Assembly (NCBI GenBank): GCA_937921825.1
Contig: CAKZVK010000170.1
Span: forward strand, 1-38,638
DNA from: an uncultured Saprospiraceae bacterium
GTDB taxonomy: Bacteria > Bacteroidota > Bacteroidia > Chitinophagales > Saprospiraceae
Direction: 5' to 3'
Length of the DNA: 38,638 nt
Position 1 is the stretch's first letter. Each line of letters starts with the position of its first letter. The position numbers were made by a program, and so were the translations under genes. Positions 1 through 6,172 of this stretch are shown here, in pieces. The notes below the pieces were generated by a model. That model ran no database searches, had not been told where the DNA came from, and saw only the letters and a list, made by a program, of their open reading frames with translations.

Positions 1-36
1 GTTCCCGCAGATTTCGGAGATTTTCGCAGATTTATT
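1..36 (+). repeat. CGCAGAT repeat unit, copy U1
   Basis: This is a near-identical copy of the ~33-bp unit that also occurs at 133-166, 232-266, 3837-3870 and 3935-3967, and inverted at 4367-4397. The shared core reads CCCGCAGATTTCGG then AGATTTTCGCAGATT. It sits at the left edge, so the element may continue outside the window. The bases after it (about 50-76) also resemble those after copy U3 (about 271-315), which suggests that a longer segment was duplicated. I see no gene in 1-332. Confidence 0.85.
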
Positions 37-83
37 TTTGAGGGAAGAAAGTGCCTTGGGTATTAGAGTAAAGGGGTTGTTGT

Positions 84-266
84 AGTTGATAATGGACAAT
101 TGATAATGGACAATTGACAATGGATAATTTTTGTTTCCCGCAGATTTCGGAGATTTTCGCAGATTTATTTTCTTTTATAGTTCTGGCGAAAGCTTAACGT
201 AAATATTAATTTTCTGGCTGATTATAATTTTGTTTCCCGCAGATTTCGGGGATTTTTGCAGATTTA
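84..266 (+). repeat. composite repeat A, upstream of the collagen-like cassette
   Basis: The order is an AT-rich stretch built on GATAATGGACAATT (84-132), repeat unit U2 (133-166), a unique-looking spacer (171-231) and repeat unit U3 (232-266). The part 171-264 recurs at 3874-3967 with only two mismatches that I can find (217 G/A and 257 T/C). The AT-rich leader and U2 also have weaker counterparts at 3805-3870. The two composites therefore form direct repeats of about 160 bp around the three collagen-like genes. Confidence 0.9.
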
Positions 267-332
267 TTTTAGTGCTTTGGGTAGTAACCTTTTGGCGTTT
301 GGCAACATAAAGGGGTACTACAATTCATTCCT

Positions 333-1490
333 ATGAAGTACTTCTTCGCTCTCTTGTTATGGCTATTTGCTATTGCTAGTCTTATTTCACAATCGGCCAT
401 TCGGTACCAAGCAGTAGTTTACGACAAGGACAATCAACCATTATTTTCGCAGCCCATAGACTTGGTATTAAGTATCCGAGAAGATGCCATGGATGGTACT
501 GTCCCTTATTCAGAATCACATGAGCTAACCACTGCAGATGATGGCAGTTTCGATCTATTAATAGGCCGCGGTATAGCTGCAACTGCTTCCTTTTCAGAGA
601 TAGCTTGGCTAGAGCACAAACATTTTGTAGAAGTCAAAGTCGATATAGAACAAGATGGCAATTTCAAAGTCATAGGTCTCACAGAATTATTATCAGTGCC
701 TTTTGCTTTCCATGCACAGGTGGCGCAGTATGGGCCTACAGGTGATGAAGGGGAACAAGGAGAACAAGGATTATCTGGTAATGCTGGGCCTCAAGGAATT
801 GCTGGCCCTCCAGGTGAGGATTATCCATGGAGTGGTGCTGTAGGACCTAAAGGTGAGAAGGGCCCACCAGGGCCGCAAGGCTTTGCTGGGCCTCAAGGCC
901 CTAGAGGAGAAGATGGTGACCCGAATGGACCCAAAGGACTCCGAGGTGATCGAGGCCCTAAAGGGCCACAAGGAAAGTCTGGACCTCAAGGAGAAGTGGG
1001 AGTTAGAGGGGAACAAGGGCCGCAAGGCTTTAATGGCAATAGAGGTCCCCAAGGCGAGCAAGGAGATCCAGGGCCAGAAGGTCCTCCAGGGGAAGATGGT
1101 AAAATGGAAGGTGATCCAGGACCTCAAGGCCCTCAAGGTCTTCCAGTACCCGATGGTGACTGTTCTGGTGGAGTTGGTCCAGTCGGTCCAGCTGGCAGAA
1201 ATGGATTAGATTGCTTTGATCTGAACGGTAACGGAGTAGGTGACCCTAGTGAAGATGTAAACGGTGATGGTGATTATAATCAGGCTGATTGCCAAGGAGC
1301 AGTGGGATCCCAAGGAGCAACGGGTCCTACAGGAGCAATAGGTCCCTCAGGCATATCTTTCGATGTGATCCTAGATACACCGCCTACAGGAAAATTACAC
1401 AGTATCTATCTAGATAATGGCTCTAACCGCTCTGATGGGAAAGTAGGATTCAGGTATTATGATGGACAAAAATGGATAGACCTCTACTAG
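333..1490 (+). CDS. collagen-like secreted protein 1
   Basis: This 385-residue protein is predicted to be exported. A signal peptide (1-19, cleavage before Gln20) leads into a domain at about 20-131 ending in [10 protein letters not shown]. That is the N-terminal module (consensus LLSVPYALYA) seen in many Bacteroidota collagen-like and fibre-like surface proteins. Residues 134-290 are interrupted Gly-X-Y triplets rich in GPQ and GPP. An EF-hand-like segment with [13 protein letters not shown] (308-320) and paired Cys interrupts the collagen, then short triplets resume. The C-terminal cap (about 341-385) carries [11 protein letters not shown] and GFRYYDG. The next gene starts one base after the stop, and two paralogues follow, so this is a three-gene operon. 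A trimeric surface or matrix fibre is the natural inference; the ligand is unknown. Confidence 0.85.
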
Positions 1491-1491
1491 T

Positions 1492-2643
1492 ATGAAAAGA
1501 TTAATCAACTTTAGTTTCTGCCTTATTCTTGCCACTGTACTGGCGGGCCAAGCCCCCTTAGCCTTTAATTACCAAGGATTGATATTGGGTATGGATAACA
1601 AACCGTTAAAGAACACAGAATTAGGCTTACGGATAGGAATTATCTCTCTTTCTGATCAATCATTATTGTATCAAGAGGAGAGCAGTGCTAGGACTACAAC
1701 TGCTGGAATATTTGCAGTGAATGTTGGTCAAGGAGCTTCCGTCTCTGGTAATATGGAACAGATAGCTTGGGGTGCTGACAGATTTGCTTTAGTGATCGAA
1801 GTGGATATAACTGGCGCTACGAACTATCAACCATTATTCAGTGAAGAAATTTTCGAAGTTCCTTATGCTTATTACACTAGGACAGCTACCGAAGTGTTGA
1901 ACCCTGGACAGACAGGTCGGCAAGGAGAGAATGGACTTATAGGTGCAGAAGGCCCGCCTGGAGCGGAAGGTATTCCAGGTCCTAGAGGGAGAAATGCGGG
2001 TGAAGGTCCTCGCGGCGAAAATGGAGCGCAAGGTCCATCAGGTCCTGCTGGTCCACAGGGACCACAAGGAAGACATGGAGGACCTACAGGTGATGCTGGT
2101 TATCAAGGACCACAAGGAGATCCTGGACAGGCGATGGGACCACAAGGACTACAAGGTCCAAGAGGAGAGCAAGGTCCACCGGGATTAGTAGGAATTGTAG
2201 GCTTGCAAGGAGAGGTGGGTCCTCAAGGCTCGCAAGGACCTATGGGTGAAGCAGGTCCTATTTCCAATATCAAAGGAGCTACAGGCCCACAAGGGCCGAG
2301 AGGTGAGGATAGGATCTGTGAGGGTCCACAAGGACCAAACGGAAGAAATGGCCTTACATGCTACGATTGCAGCAGTAATGGTACGTGGGTTGATATTGGG
2401 GCAAAGGATGTTAATGGAGATGGTGTTTTCAACCTTGCTGATTGTCAGGGCCCACCAGGTCCCCAAGGACCTACAGGTCCCACAGGACCTCAAGGACCTC
2501 AAGGCAGATCTGCTTCATTTAGTCAAACGTCCACTATACCTAGTCCTTCTACGATGAATATTTATCTAGATGATGGTACTAATAGATCTGATGGTAGACC
2601 TGGTTTTCGCTATTGGAATGGTAATGAATGGGTAGACTTATAA
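1492..2643 (+). CDS. collagen-like secreted protein 2
   Basis: This 383-residue paralogue of the preceding gene has the same layout. The signal peptide is followed by Gln (LAG then QAPL), and the N-terminal beta-rich module ends [12 protein letters not shown]. An interrupted Gly-X-Y region spans about residues 140-285. Then comes a Cys-flanked EF-hand-like loop ([14 protein letters not shown]), a run of GPQ/GPT triplets and a C-terminal cap with [11 protein letters not shown] and GFRYWNG. The ATG is one base after the upstream TAG, so translational coupling is likely. The cap is much better conserved between paralogues than the triplets, which points to a dedicated folding, trimerisation or attachment module. 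No T9SS sorting domain of the usual type is visible. Confidence 0.85.
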
Positions 2644-2645
2644 TT

Positions 2646-3809
2646 ATGAATATGGAATATAGAATATATTGTTTTGTAATCATCTTTCTATTATCTCTTT
2701 GTATTTGCCATGGGCAAGCACCAGATGCTATAAGTCTGCAAGGCATGGCATTAGATGATAACGGTTTACCTCTATCTTCGGAAGAAATATCTATAAAAGT
2801 GGAGATCATTTCTGACTTTACTTTAGGAACTGTTACCTACGAAGAAGAACATTTGGTCACTACTTCAGAGTTGGGTCATTATACATTAGAGATAGGTAGG
2901 GGTGATGATAGAATAGGAGCAATTGAACATGTTGGGTGGCAGAACAGTGATCATTACATGAGACTCAGTCTACAAGAAGAAAATGGAAGCTTTGCTATCA
3001 TGAGTACCTTGCAATTGCTTTCAGTTCCGATGGCTCTAGTTGCAGATATTTCTGGCTCTGGTATCGCAGGAGCTCAAGGGCCAAAAGGTTACGAAGGTCC
3101 GCAAGGTCCCCAAGGTGCCTTAGGTCCGCAAGGACCACAAGGAGAATCAGGAAAAGATACAGGTGGAGCTCCAGTGCAAGGTCCACCCGGTAGCGCTGGT
3201 CCCCAAGGTCCTACGGGTCCGGCAGGTCCAGCGGGCCCGCGTGGGTATGATATAGGGGCAAAAGGGCCTCAAGGCCCTGTGGGTGAACCCGGCGAAGATT
3301 ACGCAGGTCCACTCATTCAAGGTCCAAAAGGAGAGAAAGGTGCAACAGGTTCACGTGGACCTAAAGGTGCACAGGGCCCTCAAGGACCCAAAGGTCCACA
3401 AGGTCCACAAGGCCCCCAAGGCGAAAAGGGAAGAGGTGGAGGCCCTCAAGGGGATCCAGGCCCACAGGGCCCACAAGGAATAGTTGTGCTCAAAGAAGGG
3501 CCAAGAGGATTCCCAGGAATTGATTGTTTTTCAGATCCTAGTGGAATACCTCAAGATGGAGAAGATATTAATGGAGATGGGATCTATAATGCCTATGATT
3601 GTATAGGACCACAAGGCCCTAATGGACCAACAGGACCTTCAGGAAGTTGGGGCCCTCAAGGTGAAAGAGGAGACTTTATAGTAGAGATGTTATCGGAGCC
3701 GCCTGCAGAAAAAGGAGATGGCTTCTATCTTGACAACGGAATGAATAGACCGAGTGGCTTACCAGGTTTTCGATTTTGGGATGATCAGATAGGGGGATGG
3801 TTTAATTAA
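2646..3809 (+). CDS. collagen-like secreted protein 3
   Basis: This 387-residue protein is the third paralogue. I start it at the ATG two bases after the upstream stop (MNMEYR). The ATG at 2628 would overlap the previous gene and put polar residues before the signal peptide. Cleavage is predicted after CHG, leaving N-terminal Gln. The N-terminal module ends [10 protein letters not shown], and the Gly-X-Y region spans about residues 146-300. The Cys-flanked loop is [14 protein letters not shown] and the cap has [11 protein letters not shown] and GFRFWDD, ending GGWFN. The stop codon is directly followed by composite repeat B. The three-gene set may act as a heteromeric or size-variable fibre; this is inference. 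Confidence 0.85.
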
Positions 3810-3967
3810 TTGATAATTGACAATTGATAATTTTTGGGTTCCCGCAGATCTCGCGGAGTTTCGCAGATTTTTTTCTTTTATAGTTCTGGCGAAAGCTTAA
3901 CGTAAATATTAATTTTCTGACTGATTATAATTTTGTTTCCCGCAGATTTCGGGGATTTTCGCAGATT
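3805..3967 (+). repeat. composite repeat B, downstream of the collagen-like cassette
   Basis: This composite begins at the stop codon of the third collagen-like gene. An AT-rich part built on AATTGATAATTGACAATTG (about 3807-3836) is followed by a diverged unit U4 (3837-3870), then a spacer plus unit U5 (3874-3967). The last segment is almost identical to 171-264. Unit U5 points toward the GxxExxY gene and ends only a few bases before that gene's stop codon. It therefore forms an inverted pair with the copy at 4367-4397. Confidence 0.9.
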
Positions 3968-3974
3968 GTTCTAA

Positions 3975-4352
3975 TTAAAGTTTATTGACTTTTCTAAAAA
4001 TTCCCTCATTTATATTGTCAACATTAAAATTTACTAGGATGCCTAATTTCTTGTCCGTGATTTTTAAATAAGTCAAAACCTGTTTATGATGCACCGCCAT
4101 TAAATTTTCAACAGATTTTACTTCTATTACCACCTTGTCTTCAACAAGTAAATCTAACCTAAATCCTATTTCAAGTTTTTTGTCTTTATAGTAGACTGGT
4201 ACTGGCACTTCTTTCTGTACCAAAAGGTTGTTCTCTTTCAATTCGTGCATTAGCGCATTAACATAAACTGACTCCAATAAGCCTGGCCCAAATGCATTAT
4301 ATACATTGTAGATGGCTCCTCTAATCGCATATGAAATATCATTTTCCGTCAT
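3975..4352 (-). CDS. GxxExxY family protein (PD-(D/E)XK-like)
   Basis: This 125-residue protein starts MTENDISYAIRG. It carries the family signature G-L-L-E-S-V-Y and a downstream block with DLLVEDKVVIEVKS, which matches the PD-(D/E)XK nuclease-like core (D, then E-x-K). The family (PDDEXK_3 type) is widespread in Bacteroidota; its biological role is not established as far as I know. A longer frame reaches 4415, but its extra 21 codons translate the repeat copy at 4367-4397 (they read as QISQIFADQF). The ATG at 4352 is therefore the better start. The gene lies between inward-facing copies of the CGCAGAT unit, which hints that gene and repeat belong together. Confidence 0.85.
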   Translation of the reverse strand: MTENDISYAIRGAIYNVYNAFGPGLLESVYVNALMHELKENNLLVQKEVPVPVYYKDKKLEIGFRLDLLVEDKVVIEVKSVENLMAVHHKQVLTYLKITDKKLGILVNFNVDNINEGIFRKVNKL

Positions 4353-4366
4353 CTTTAATTCAAATT

Positions 4367-4422
4367 GATCTGCGAAGATCTGCGAAATCTGCGGGACACA
4401 AAAATCAATTATCAATCTTCCC
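4367..4422 (-). repeat. inverted CGCAGAT repeat with AT-rich leader, copy C
   Basis: On the minus strand this reads AT-rich leader (about 4422-4401), then CCCGCAGATTTCGCAG ATCTTCGCAGATC (4395-4367). It contains three CGCAGAT motifs and has the same internal order as composites A and B. It lies 14 bases before the GxxExxY start codon, so it forms that gene's leader. Its AT-rich part overlaps the last codons of the S24 regulator. Confidence 0.85.
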
Positions 4423-5160
4423 CTCTATACTAGTCATGCGCTTCATAAGTTCTTCCATTTGTGATTCTAGTTTAGTGGCTGCATTTTTCTTGTCGTCGCT
4501 AAAGCTTAGGTGTCCATAATATTCCCAGATTTCATTCACTTGATCGAAGGGTAATTCGTAGGGTAGAAAGACTTCATTGTCAGAAGATAGGATGAGTTGC
4601 TTGTTCTTTTTGTCGGATTTAACGCGTTTGTATACCAGACCGTCTCTATTGCTGATGATGATGTAGGTTTTGTGGTCCTTGATCTGATCTAGTTGCTCTA
4701 CATAAGAGGCGATGATGACGCTGCCGGGTTCTACTGGAAGCATAGAGTCTCCTTGTATCTCAAAACCTCGGTAAGTGCCCTCAGGGATATTAGGAAACTG
4801 AATCTTAGGTAGATCGCGGATGTATTCAGGATTGTGATAGCTATCTAGATAGCCAGCTTCTGCTTTGGTATCTACCAGTTCTATATTGCCTTCATTATTA
4901 CTGTCTACGGAGATAGCCAGCACTTTCATGACTTTGGTCTTCAGAATTTCGTAGTCGCTGTGACTGAGATCGTCTTTTATGAGGTTGTCTACTTTGACAT
5001 CAAAGTATTCTGCCATCTTGATCAGCATGGCAATATTGGGTTCAGTTTTACCTCTCTCATAATCACCGAGAGTAGTCCTGGGAACATTTAAAACTTCTGA
5101 AAGACCTTGTTGAGAGATTTTATTCTTCTGTCGTAGATACTTGAGATTCTTATTGAGCAT
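4405..5160 (-). CDS. XRE-family regulator with S24 (LexA-like) domain
   Basis: This 251-residue regulator starts at the ATG at 5160 (MLNKNLKYLRQK); the TTG at 5178 lies inside a promoter-like box. Residues about 3-60 form an XRE helix-turn-helix (SQQGLSEVLNVPRTTLGDYERG). A linker leads to an S24 domain with GDSM (Ser about 139) and VYKRVK (Lys about 178), the Ser-Lys dyad of LexA/CI-type self-cleaving repressors. An Ala-Gly in KAEAGY lies about 36 residues before the Ser, where LexA is cut. A short heptad-like tail follows (LESQMEELMKRM). The final Ile-Asp-Asn-stop is encoded by repeat copy C. It probably autoregulates; a DNA-damage role fits the nearby SRAP gene but is inference. Confidence 0.85.
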   Translation of the reverse strand: MLNKNLKYLRQKNKISQQGLSEVLNVPRTTLGDYERGKTEPNIAMLIKMAEYFDVKVDNLIKDDLSHSDYEILKTKVMKVLAISVDSNNEGNIELVDTKAEAGYLDSYHNPEYIRDLPKIQFPNIPEGTYRGFEIQGDSMLPVEPGSVIIASYVEQLDQIKDHKTYIIISNRDGLVYKRVKSDKKNKQLILSSDNEVFLPYELPFDQVNEIWEYYGHLSFSDDKKNAATKLESQMEELMKRMTSIEGKIDN

Positions 5161-5175
5161 ATAGAGACTTTTGCT

Positions 5176-5183
5176 CAAAGTTA
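5176..5183 (-). promoter_or_regulatory. putative -7 box of the S24 regulator
   Basis: The minus strand reads TAACTTTG, an exact match to the Bacteroidota -7 consensus TAnnTTTG. It is 15 bases before the chosen ATG, giving a very short leader. A TTGACC about 23 bases further upstream may act as the -33 element. The box contains the TTG that a longer gene model would use as start, which argues for the shorter model. Confidence 0.45.
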
Positions 5184-5192
5184 CGACATCTG

Positions 5193-5231
5193 CCGAATAT
5201 ATCGGTCAATAAATGTTGACTATATCGACAA
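5193..5231. promoter_or_regulatory. candidate operator: two related dyads
   Basis: There are two imperfect palindromes: CCGAATATATCGG (5193-5205) and TTGACTATATCGACAA (5216-5231). They share GA(A/C)TATATCG with a 23-bp offset. The first lies between the candidate -33 and -7 elements of the S24 regulator gene, as expected for an autorepression site. The assignment rests on symmetry and position alone. Confidence 0.4.
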
Positions 5232-5363
5232 TTATTTCATTTTGAAGGTTTGAATCTGAAAAGTGTCTACTTCTATGGGACGTAGGTTATTTCTTTTTCT
5301 GGACTTCAGCACCAAGGCTGGAAGCATAATCACTAACAATAAGGATATTACAAATACTATCAT
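5232..5363 (-). CDS. possible small membrane protein (43 aa)
   Basis: A short frame downstream of the SRAP gene, on the same strand, encodes a hydrophobic N-terminus (MIVFVISLLLVIMLPALVL), then KSRKRNN and a polar tail ending FKMK. This looks like a single-span protein with a positive-inside C-terminal side. The frame stays open upstream of the ATG to just after the SRAP stop (residues read ...YKKLGGFKGIFILSCLVN), so a longer product from a non-ATG codon is possible. Its stop lies at the edge of the candidate operator. I do not recognise a family. The opposite-strand frame here runs into the SRAP gene and looks less protein-like. Confidence 0.4.
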   Translation of the reverse strand: MIVFVISLLLVIMLPALVLKSRKRNNLRPIEVDTFQIQTFKMK

Positions 5364-5446
5364 ATTGACTAGACAAGACAGAATAAATATTCCCTTGAAT
5401 CCACCAAGCTTTTTATACTTTAAGTTGTCTTGCGTCAGCTATCTGA

Positions 5447-6172
5447 CTAGAATAATGTCAGGGTATTGTCATTTAGATTGGGACGCTGTTCTGCGATCAG
5501 ATCAATAGAATTATTCCTGACATTCCCGATCTTGTTAGAGACAGGATAGGCTTTCATATGCTCAGAGGGATAGGGCTCTATCATGCCTACTAATTCAGAA
5601 GGTGGGAGATCATCACTTAGCCAGAGTTCCTCCTGTTCTGGCGTAAGAATAGCCGGCATTCTATCATGAATATCTTTCATGAGTTCATTAGGTCCTTGTG
5701 TAATTACGGTAAAGGAAAAAATAGTCTGCCCATCTGGAGCCTTCCATCTATCCCAGAGTCCAGCCATGGAGAATATTTCTCTATCTGTAGTTTGGATTCT
5801 GTAAGGTTGTTTTGTCGTTTTGCCATTGGGGCCTTTGATTTTTTTCCATTCATAAAAGCCATCTGCAGGTACGAGACAGCGTCTTTTGGCTACAGCCATC
5901 TTGAAAGAGCTTTTTTCAAAAAGGGTTTCTATCCTGGCATTGATCATTTTGTTACCAATCTTGGCATCCTTGGCCCAGGAAGGAATAAGTCCCCAGCGAT
6001 AGGCTTGGAAATGCAGTCTGTCTTCATTGATGATGACGGGCATGACATGGGATGGCGCCACATTGTAATTAGGGAGTGGGTTATAATTAACCAGTCCATC
6101 AGAGTAGAAGGTAGCATTGAAACGTTCTTCTAGTTCTTTTTCAGTTTTGGTGAGTGATGATCTGCCGCACAT
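5447..6172 (-). CDS. SRAP-domain abasic-site protein (HMCES/YedK family)
   Basis: This 241-residue protein begins Met-Cys-Gly-Arg; Cys2 is the residue that, in this family, forms the thiazolidine crosslink to abasic sites in single-stranded DNA after Met removal. Other family landmarks are NVAPS (37-41), WGLIPSWAKD (60-69), INARIET (Asn78, Arg80), DGFYEWK (Glu108) and IHDRMP (His169). The length is normal for the family. It shields abasic sites at stalled forks. The S24 regulator lies downstream on the same strand, which suggests (not proves) damage-linked control. Upstream is a G-rich tandem repeat. Confidence 0.93.
   Translation of the reverse strand: MCGRSSLTKTEKELEERFNATFYSDGLVNYNPLPNYNVAPSHVMPVIINEDRLHFQAYRWGLIPSWAKDAKIGNKMINARIETLFEKSSFKMAVAKRRCLVPADGFYEWKKIKGPNGKTTKQPYRIQTTDREIFSMAGLWDRWKAPDGQTIFSFTVITQGPNELMKDIHDRMPAILTPEQEELWLSDDLPPSELVGMIEPYPSEHMKAYPVSNKIGNVRNNSIDLIAEQRPNLNDNTLTLF

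Follow-up and report, generated by a model that had tools for sequence, protein, structure and literature searches.

GxxExxY/PDDEXK_3 nuclease-like genes and the facing repeat arrays around them in a Saprospiraceae genome and in other bacteria

In RAYT/REP systems a small gene is 'always' flanked by two repeats of inverted orientation, according to the excerpt of PMC2817692. Cognate repeats are also found elsewhere in the genome, facing gene-less doublets occur and the repeat tracks the sequence of the enzyme (excerpts of PMC2817692 and PMC3116915). The excerpt of PMC2817692 further reports from 37 to 427 perfect repeat copies and a rapid evolution of rayt genes. Another system to be considered is the 23S intervening sequence (IVS) of Coxiella, with 428 nt, whose termini pair as a 28-bp stem and which RNase III cuts out (excerpt of PMC4990558). 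Four-helix-bundle genes are listed in putative phage regions in PMC5524665, the excerpt of which holds nothing on an association with repeats. For GxxExxY/PDDEXK_3 genes, no description of an association with repeats was found by title or abstract in the open-licence literature. The family name GxxExxY states no function.

The locus studied here is part of a window (the whole stretch of DNA that was analysed, 38,638 nt) from an uncultured Saprospiraceae bacterium. Its organisation is like that of RAYT/REP, with a different enzyme and a different unit.

The window gene and its units in the host genome

The GxxExxY/PDDEXK_3 nuclease-like gene occupies positions 3975-4352 on the minus strand and encodes 125 aa. 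Its protein matches PF13366 (PDDEXK_3; Pfam profile search, E 5.3e-40, 136.9 bits, cut-off 22) and TIGR04256 (GxxExxY; E 3e-41, 140.4 bits, cut-off 35), above both of the curated cut-offs used as the family criterion. PF13366 was the sole Pfam match at E<=0.001, with neither a Y1 (HUH) tyrosine transposase nor a DDE transposase domain found in this search. In an alignment of 38 rows, G22, E27, Y30, D67, E77, K79, Q91, G104 and N108 are invariant. The AlphaFold2 model (pLDDT 96) has a predicted fold nearest to that of a Cas4: the sole PDB match at E<=0.001 is 4ic1 (SSO0001; TM 0.59, E 5.5e-4), which we take to be a Cas4, and the weaker matches include lambda exonuclease (E 0.02). A sequence search against PDB gave no match at E<=1. 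The preliminary description had assigned the gene to a PD-(D/E)XK-like family, and this is supported by the PF13366 match, by the conserved acidic residues and the E-x-K expected of such enzymes (E27, D67, E77 and K79, all invariant), and by the match of the core fold to 4ic1.

On the 3' side of the gene, the inward-facing unit TTCCCGCAGATTTCGGGGATTTTCGCAGATT lies at 3937-3967 on the plus strand (repeat 3937-3973; 0 mismatches). On the 5' side, its inverted copy, recognised through inverted-repeat pairs, lies at 4368-4397 on the minus strand (within 4362-4405; 2 mismatches). The inverted score of these flanks is 24, whereas shuffled flanks reach 14 at most (500 shuffles). The gene had been described as lying between inward-facing copies of one unit that recurs in the window, and both statements hold. 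The further copies, all on the plus strand, are an additional unit in direct orientation at 3839-3869 (repeat 3839-3875; 2 mismatches) and solo units at 2-32 (repeat 2-38; 0 mismatches), 135-165 (repeat 135-171; 0 mismatches) and 234-264 (repeat 234-270; 1 mismatch). An ORF of 146 aa, which starts from a TTG at 4415, crosses the inverted unit before it enters the GxxExxY gene; the ATG at 4352 seems to us the likelier start. The neighbours of the gene are protein genes, and an Rfam search of positions 1-6000 of the window gave no match at E<=1.

Three neighbouring genes at 333-3809 contain long collagen-like Gly-X-Y repeats (PF01391 matched in the first, the only one scanned). At both ends of them we found a 100-nt cassette, composed of an inter-unit spacer and the next unit, at 165-264 and at 3868-3967 (plus strand), the two being 97% identical. 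Recombination between these direct cassettes could result in deletion or multiplication of the three genes.

The genome (4.0 Mb, 172 contigs) contains 17 copies of the unit at <=3 mismatches, 10 forward and 7 reverse, and no copy of the unit pattern read backwards. Contigs other than that of the window hold 11 of the 17. For the 10 scorable copies on those contigs, no GxxExxY gene was found within the stretch read (0/10). The 10 scored solo units all lack a facing partner and most have direct neighbours, with direct arrays on contigs C67 (~40-nt period) and C76 (51-nt period). Two more PF13366 places, L002 and the remnant L003, are near other repeats. The remnant (L003:1-560) has a stop and lies within a ~225-nt tandem array that has a facing repeat of another kind, catgattttaaagataataggatagacaagatg. 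The best Y1_Tnp gene of this genome (L342) has inverted flanks with a score of 14 (AGCTCCAGAGGAGC), and is possibly part of an ordinary RAYT/REP pair. Around the orthologous HTH gene in 29 relatives (45-63% identical in the HTH protein) the window unit was found in none within the stretch read (0/29), and 3/29 contain another GxxExxY gene, on the opposite side of the HTH gene.

Bracketing across genomes and the composition of the units

PF13366 is present in 151/296 Bacteroidota genomes. A first set of 92 distinct full-length genes was drawn from 30 loci, 60 regions from the list of PF13366 matches and one other region; these are strong matches among the matches listed, not a random draw. L021 and L112 are the same and were counted once, and 10/103 matches were left out (own-genome copies, partial genes and one without flanks). 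Flanks of 250 nt were compared without the use of any word pattern, a score of at least 13 being taken as positive, with other ORFs of these regions, at a distance of more than 500 nt, as controls. Inverted flank repeats were found in 53/92 GxxExxY genes versus 4/414 control ORFs (Fisher p 1.4e-41), the other 39/92 genes being under the threshold of 13. Direct repeats reach a score of at least 13 in 30/92 genes, and inverted or direct ones in 69/92 versus 14/414 controls. The preliminary description had proposed to count the association of repeat and gene across Bacteroidota, and the count thus favours it. When the left flank of one gene was compared with the right flank of another, only 14/279 pairs matched, so the flank match is mostly specific to the locus.

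The second set, partly from other phyla, comprises the best 80 of 572 loci from GTDB genomes, 5/80 being left out for short flanks. An inverted score of at least 13 was found in 46/75 of them versus 12/382 control ORFs, these controls being unscreened for other GxxExxY genes. Of the scored loci whose names place them outside Bacteroidota in the narrow sense, 10/15 reach 13: Nostoc (L214), Leptolyngbyaceae (L245), Acidobacteria (L187, L230 and L240), Desulfobacteraceae (L195), Zetaproteobacteria (L213), Pirellula (L243), Hatepunaea (L232) and Ignavibacteria (L207). L235 and L237 score 12, and L186, L204 and L222 only 8-9.

The flanks consist of 7-nt words in rows, for example CACAGAG, CGCAGAT and CACGGAT. 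For the word C[AG]C[AGT][AG]A[GTA], the start-to-start spacing peaks at 9 nt (120) and 10 nt (102). In the matched repeats of the two sets the words face inward in 42/53 and 31/46 loci, outward in 7/53 and 8/46 (L187, L230 and L243 being among the outward ones) and neither way in 4 and 7. Inward word arrays on both sides are present in 38/92 and 24/75 GxxExxY loci versus 1/801 control ORFs. Outward arrays are also above controls when counted by side (14 and 15/92, 23 and 19/75, versus 29 and 27/801). Since the word pattern was drawn up after the flanks had been read, these word-array counts describe the pattern and are no independent test. Within a locus the two arrays agree by 0.90 in words and by 0.60 in spacers, and across mismatched loci by 0.75 and 0.33, respectively (37 loci). 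In 8 units checked we found no GTAG-type (GT[AG]G) head and no hairpin clearly stronger than in shuffled sequence, the folding energies being within ~1.3 standard deviations of shuffles.

A similar bracketing was found around genes of another family, PF05635 (23S_rRNA_IVP), present in 116/148 Bacteroidota genomes. Inverted flanks with a score of at least 13 occur in 16/30 IVP loci versus 1/13 control ORFs of the same loci, and 2/6 IVP genes of the window's own genome reach 13. The IVP words differ from those of GxxExxY, the GxxExxY word array being present in 0/30 IVP loci. Facing-repeat bracketing is thus found in no fewer than two small ORF families that are unrelated to each other and have different words, and because IVP genes are bracketed too it need not require a nuclease. 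In L142-L171 and L346-L351, the IVP four-helix-bundle genes are often bracketed by facing TTAGCTATTAGCTG- and AAGTATCAAGATATG-like repeats.

The units are cognate to the GxxExxY genes. Across 3818 gene pairs with members from different bacterial families, unit similarity climbs with protein identity (Mantel r 0.34; 0/999 permutations as high, the top one reaching 0.08), and flanks 350-500 nt away show no trend with it (rho 0.01). A three-word unit pattern is found in 82/296 Bacteroidota genomes, and PF13366 in 77/82 of these versus 74/214 others (p 3.5e-22), a count to which the gene's own arrays add; 5/82 unit-bearing genomes have no PF13366. Stratified by family (22 families, 238/296 genomes, labels by hand), the odds ratio is 20 (p 2.3e-6). 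Within genomes the link is weak. Thirteen solo units compared with the sampled gene of their own genome give it a mean rank of 0.30 (0.5 expected; p 0.010), the gene being first or tied first in 3 and 9th or worse in 8, and solo units often fit GxxExxY genes of other genomes better. Several GxxExxY genes per genome are common, and one or two were sampled for this ranking.

Presence, absence and conservation at two sites

Two sites of one genus were compared. The first, in genus g18, is the spacer between the methionyl aminopeptidase gene (TIGR00500; map) and a methyltransferase-like gene, the latter having weak profile matches under the cut-offs. Among the best 30 of 121 matching genomes, the spacer is empty (19-27 nt) in 10, contains element A (510-553 nt) in 8 and element B (506-548 nt) in 7, has what we judged to be a remnant in 3 and another insert in 2. 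The GxxExxY subfamilies of A and B are 38% identical on average, and their arrays differ. On the tree of the neighbour genes, in which 5/27 inner branches are well supported, 16 state changes are needed (shuffled mean 16.9). L295, a B site, is grouped with support beside two empty sites and one other insert. At the remnant sites L283 and L304, an unrelated facing repeat (CTGCAAGGTTTTCAAAACCTTG-like) is found where the element would be.

The second site is the spacer from a bioF-like gene (TIGR00858 as best match, below cut-off) to bioD (TIGR00347). Among the best 30 of 87 matching genomes, with states called by eye, 7 have a GxxExxY gene, 2 have gene-less facing arrays (L323 and L339), 3 a single array, 3 no unit and 5 other ORFs, 1 is unclear and 9/30 were unscored because bioF was not found upstream. 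In L312:990-1040 the bioF-like gene and the unit overlap where the gene ends, and its stop codon and last few residues appear to be provided by the unit. At both sites the elements sit between co-oriented genes. In the filled sites the original spacer is lost, with no target-site duplication or exact junction readable, and we found no recent insertion of an element.

Units without the gene are also seen elsewhere. In the first pattern matches in other genomes (L113-L141), 24/29 have no GxxExxY gene in the stretch read. Seven of these 24 solo loci are gene-less facing pairs at a score of at least 15 and 10 at a score of at least 11, a threshold chosen afterwards; all 10 face inward, and L124 is a clear example. 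The preliminary description had suggested a search for empty sites, and empty spacers, single units and gene-less pairs are indeed found at the two sites. It had also named, as grounds for giving up the idea, a lack of association between repeat and gene across genomes, or repeats at fixed positions with no empty sites; the association holds, and empty sites and gene-less units exist.

The sequences of gene and arrays are conserved. Pairwise dN/dS ranges from 0.02 to 0.06 in A (5 sequences) and from 0.03 to 0.09 in B (6 sequences), at dS values between 0.38 and 2.0 (above 1 in 20/25 pairs), which indicates strong purifying selection on the gene. Across the same species, word columns of the arrays are 0.85-0.97 identical and spacer columns 0.75-0.94.

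Possible origins of the bracketed genes and comparison with known systems

We suggest, with confidence and doubt about equal, that the GxxExxY gene and its arrays are a nuclease-plus-cognate-repeat element that is copied via cutting of the arrays and host repair. The gene and the two facing word arrays would be one element of ~0.45-0.58 kb. The arrays would be putative cognate recognition sites, made of CRCAGAK-like 7-nt words (CGCAGAT in the window), and their period of 9-10 nt, about one helical turn, could be readable by a nuclease oligomer. The Cas4-like PD-(D/E)XK nuclease would bind DNA and act at the arrays, cutting or resecting it at unit pairs, and host repair would then place copies of the units, either alone or together with the gene, in new intergenic positions. 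The gene-less facing pairs and single units would be leftover non-autonomous relatives of such a mobile element.

What weighs most against mobility is the age of the occupied sites, along with the tight conservation of the gene and the lack of a readable target duplication. With sites this old (dS >1 in 20/25 pairs, low dN/dS), a kept host gene fits as well as a mobile one. The gene could be a domesticated host nuclease whose arrays selection maintains as fixed operators or cutting sites, in regulation, repair or defence; the element would no longer be mobile, and the changes at the sites would be losses and local recombination. We consider this a serious possibility, though a rather unlikely one. 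The very low dN/dS at high dS and the conservation of the arrays at orthologous sites are in agreement with it, as is the finding of GxxExxY in 8 records in the plasmid search and 0 in the phage search. A purely fixed host function is hardest to reconcile with the way in which solo units and gene-less pairs are scattered and with the turnover at two sites. At the map site, this turnover amounts to the 16 changes close to the shuffled mean, with a B element grouped with empty sites, and two subfamilies as distant as 38% identity share that one place.

The facing units could also act at the level of RNA, like the 23S IVS: they would form a stem in the transcript, which RNase III removes or shields so that the insert can sit in operons, with the ORF as a passenger. 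The location between co-oriented genes at both studied sites would suit this, as would the 28-bp stem and RNase III excision of the Coxiella IVS (excerpt of PMC4990558). The IVP family, named after the 23S intervening sequences, is bracketed alike (16/30 versus 1/13 controls). Pairing could be read from the within-locus identity of spacers, which at 0.60 is still above the 0.33 of mismatched loci, and from the spacers of one array being sometimes as conserved as words across species (0.94 versus 0.92, A left). Words of the two arrays nevertheless match by 0.90 and spacers only by 0.60, and some direct arrays have no facing partner at all (L008, L009, L116, L133 and L136), so that we consider an RNA-level element improbable. 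Still less probable is that the units owe their movement to a different cellular enzyme (Y1/RAYT or an IS), the nuclease gene being merely carried along. The genome does have four Y1_Tnp places, but the window unit was found at 0/4 of them in the stretch read (scores 7-9, shuffled mean 7.9), a result on proximity and on Y1 alone, and the unit sequence tracks that of the nuclease. A chance or low-complexity artefact of intergenic DNA could be imagined, since the words are short and degenerate and their pattern was written after the flanks had been seen. We rejected it, as next to inconceivable, on the pattern-free inverted-repeat test with control ORFs of the same regions, the mispaired flanks and the shuffles.

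If the gene and its arrays are indeed a nuclease-plus-cognate-repeat element, they may belong to a distinct class of repeats across phyla, a proposal that we make tentatively and rather expect to need revision. In such a class, a Cas4-like nuclease would read helically phased arrays on either side of its gene. By cutting and repair, and with no transposase involved, it would spread copies both with and without the gene. IVP elements would be a parallel line with the same plan and another protein, and the class would be defined by the facing arrays, not by the ORF. The tie to a cognate repeat gives GxxExxY proteins a candidate DNA substrate that is testable at once, and suggests where a family of short repeats interspersed in many bacterial genomes may have come from. 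RAYT/REP-like repeat systems would then have evolved anew around an unrelated enzyme. The function of the 23S intervening-sequence protein may belong to the same problem.

Among other known systems, the 23S IVS resembles these elements in having an ORF of similar size between complementary ends and a similar element length. It differs in that the GxxExxY protein is PDDEXK_3 and not S23/IVP, the words are different and the elements that we followed are located between protein genes. Cas4 and other PD-(D/E)XK exonucleases are similar in predicted fold (4ic1, TM 0.59), although the GxxExxY protein has no PDB sequence match at E<=1. As in MITEs, gene-less facing pairs akin to gene-bearing ones are found, but there is no DDE transposase domain on the GxxExxY protein, and no target duplication was seen.

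The closest comparison is RAYT/REP. The GxxExxY gene likewise lies between inverted repeats (53/92 versus 4/414), but not always. The unit goes with the gene across genomes (77/82 versus 74/214; odds ratio 20), with a weak match within genomes. Gene-less facing doublets also occur (7/24 at a score of at least 15, 10/24 at a score of at least 11), with 0/10 in the window's own genome. In contrast, the enzyme is PD-(D/E)XK, whereas RAYT is a Y1 tyrosine transposase, and the unit consists of 7-nt words 9-10 nt apart, without a GTAG-type head or a hairpin clearly above shuffles. With 17 copies at <=3 mismatches, the window's genome has few units, and the gene evolves slowly (dN/dS 0.02-0.09), unlike rayt. 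The preliminary description had likened the locus to the RAYT/REP relation: the organisation is indeed alike, but membership fails on the Y1 transposase, the head and the hairpin. GxxExxY genes and their units thus seem to combine an organisation known from RAYT/REP with a new enzyme and a new unit, and there is a real chance that they represent a class of their own.
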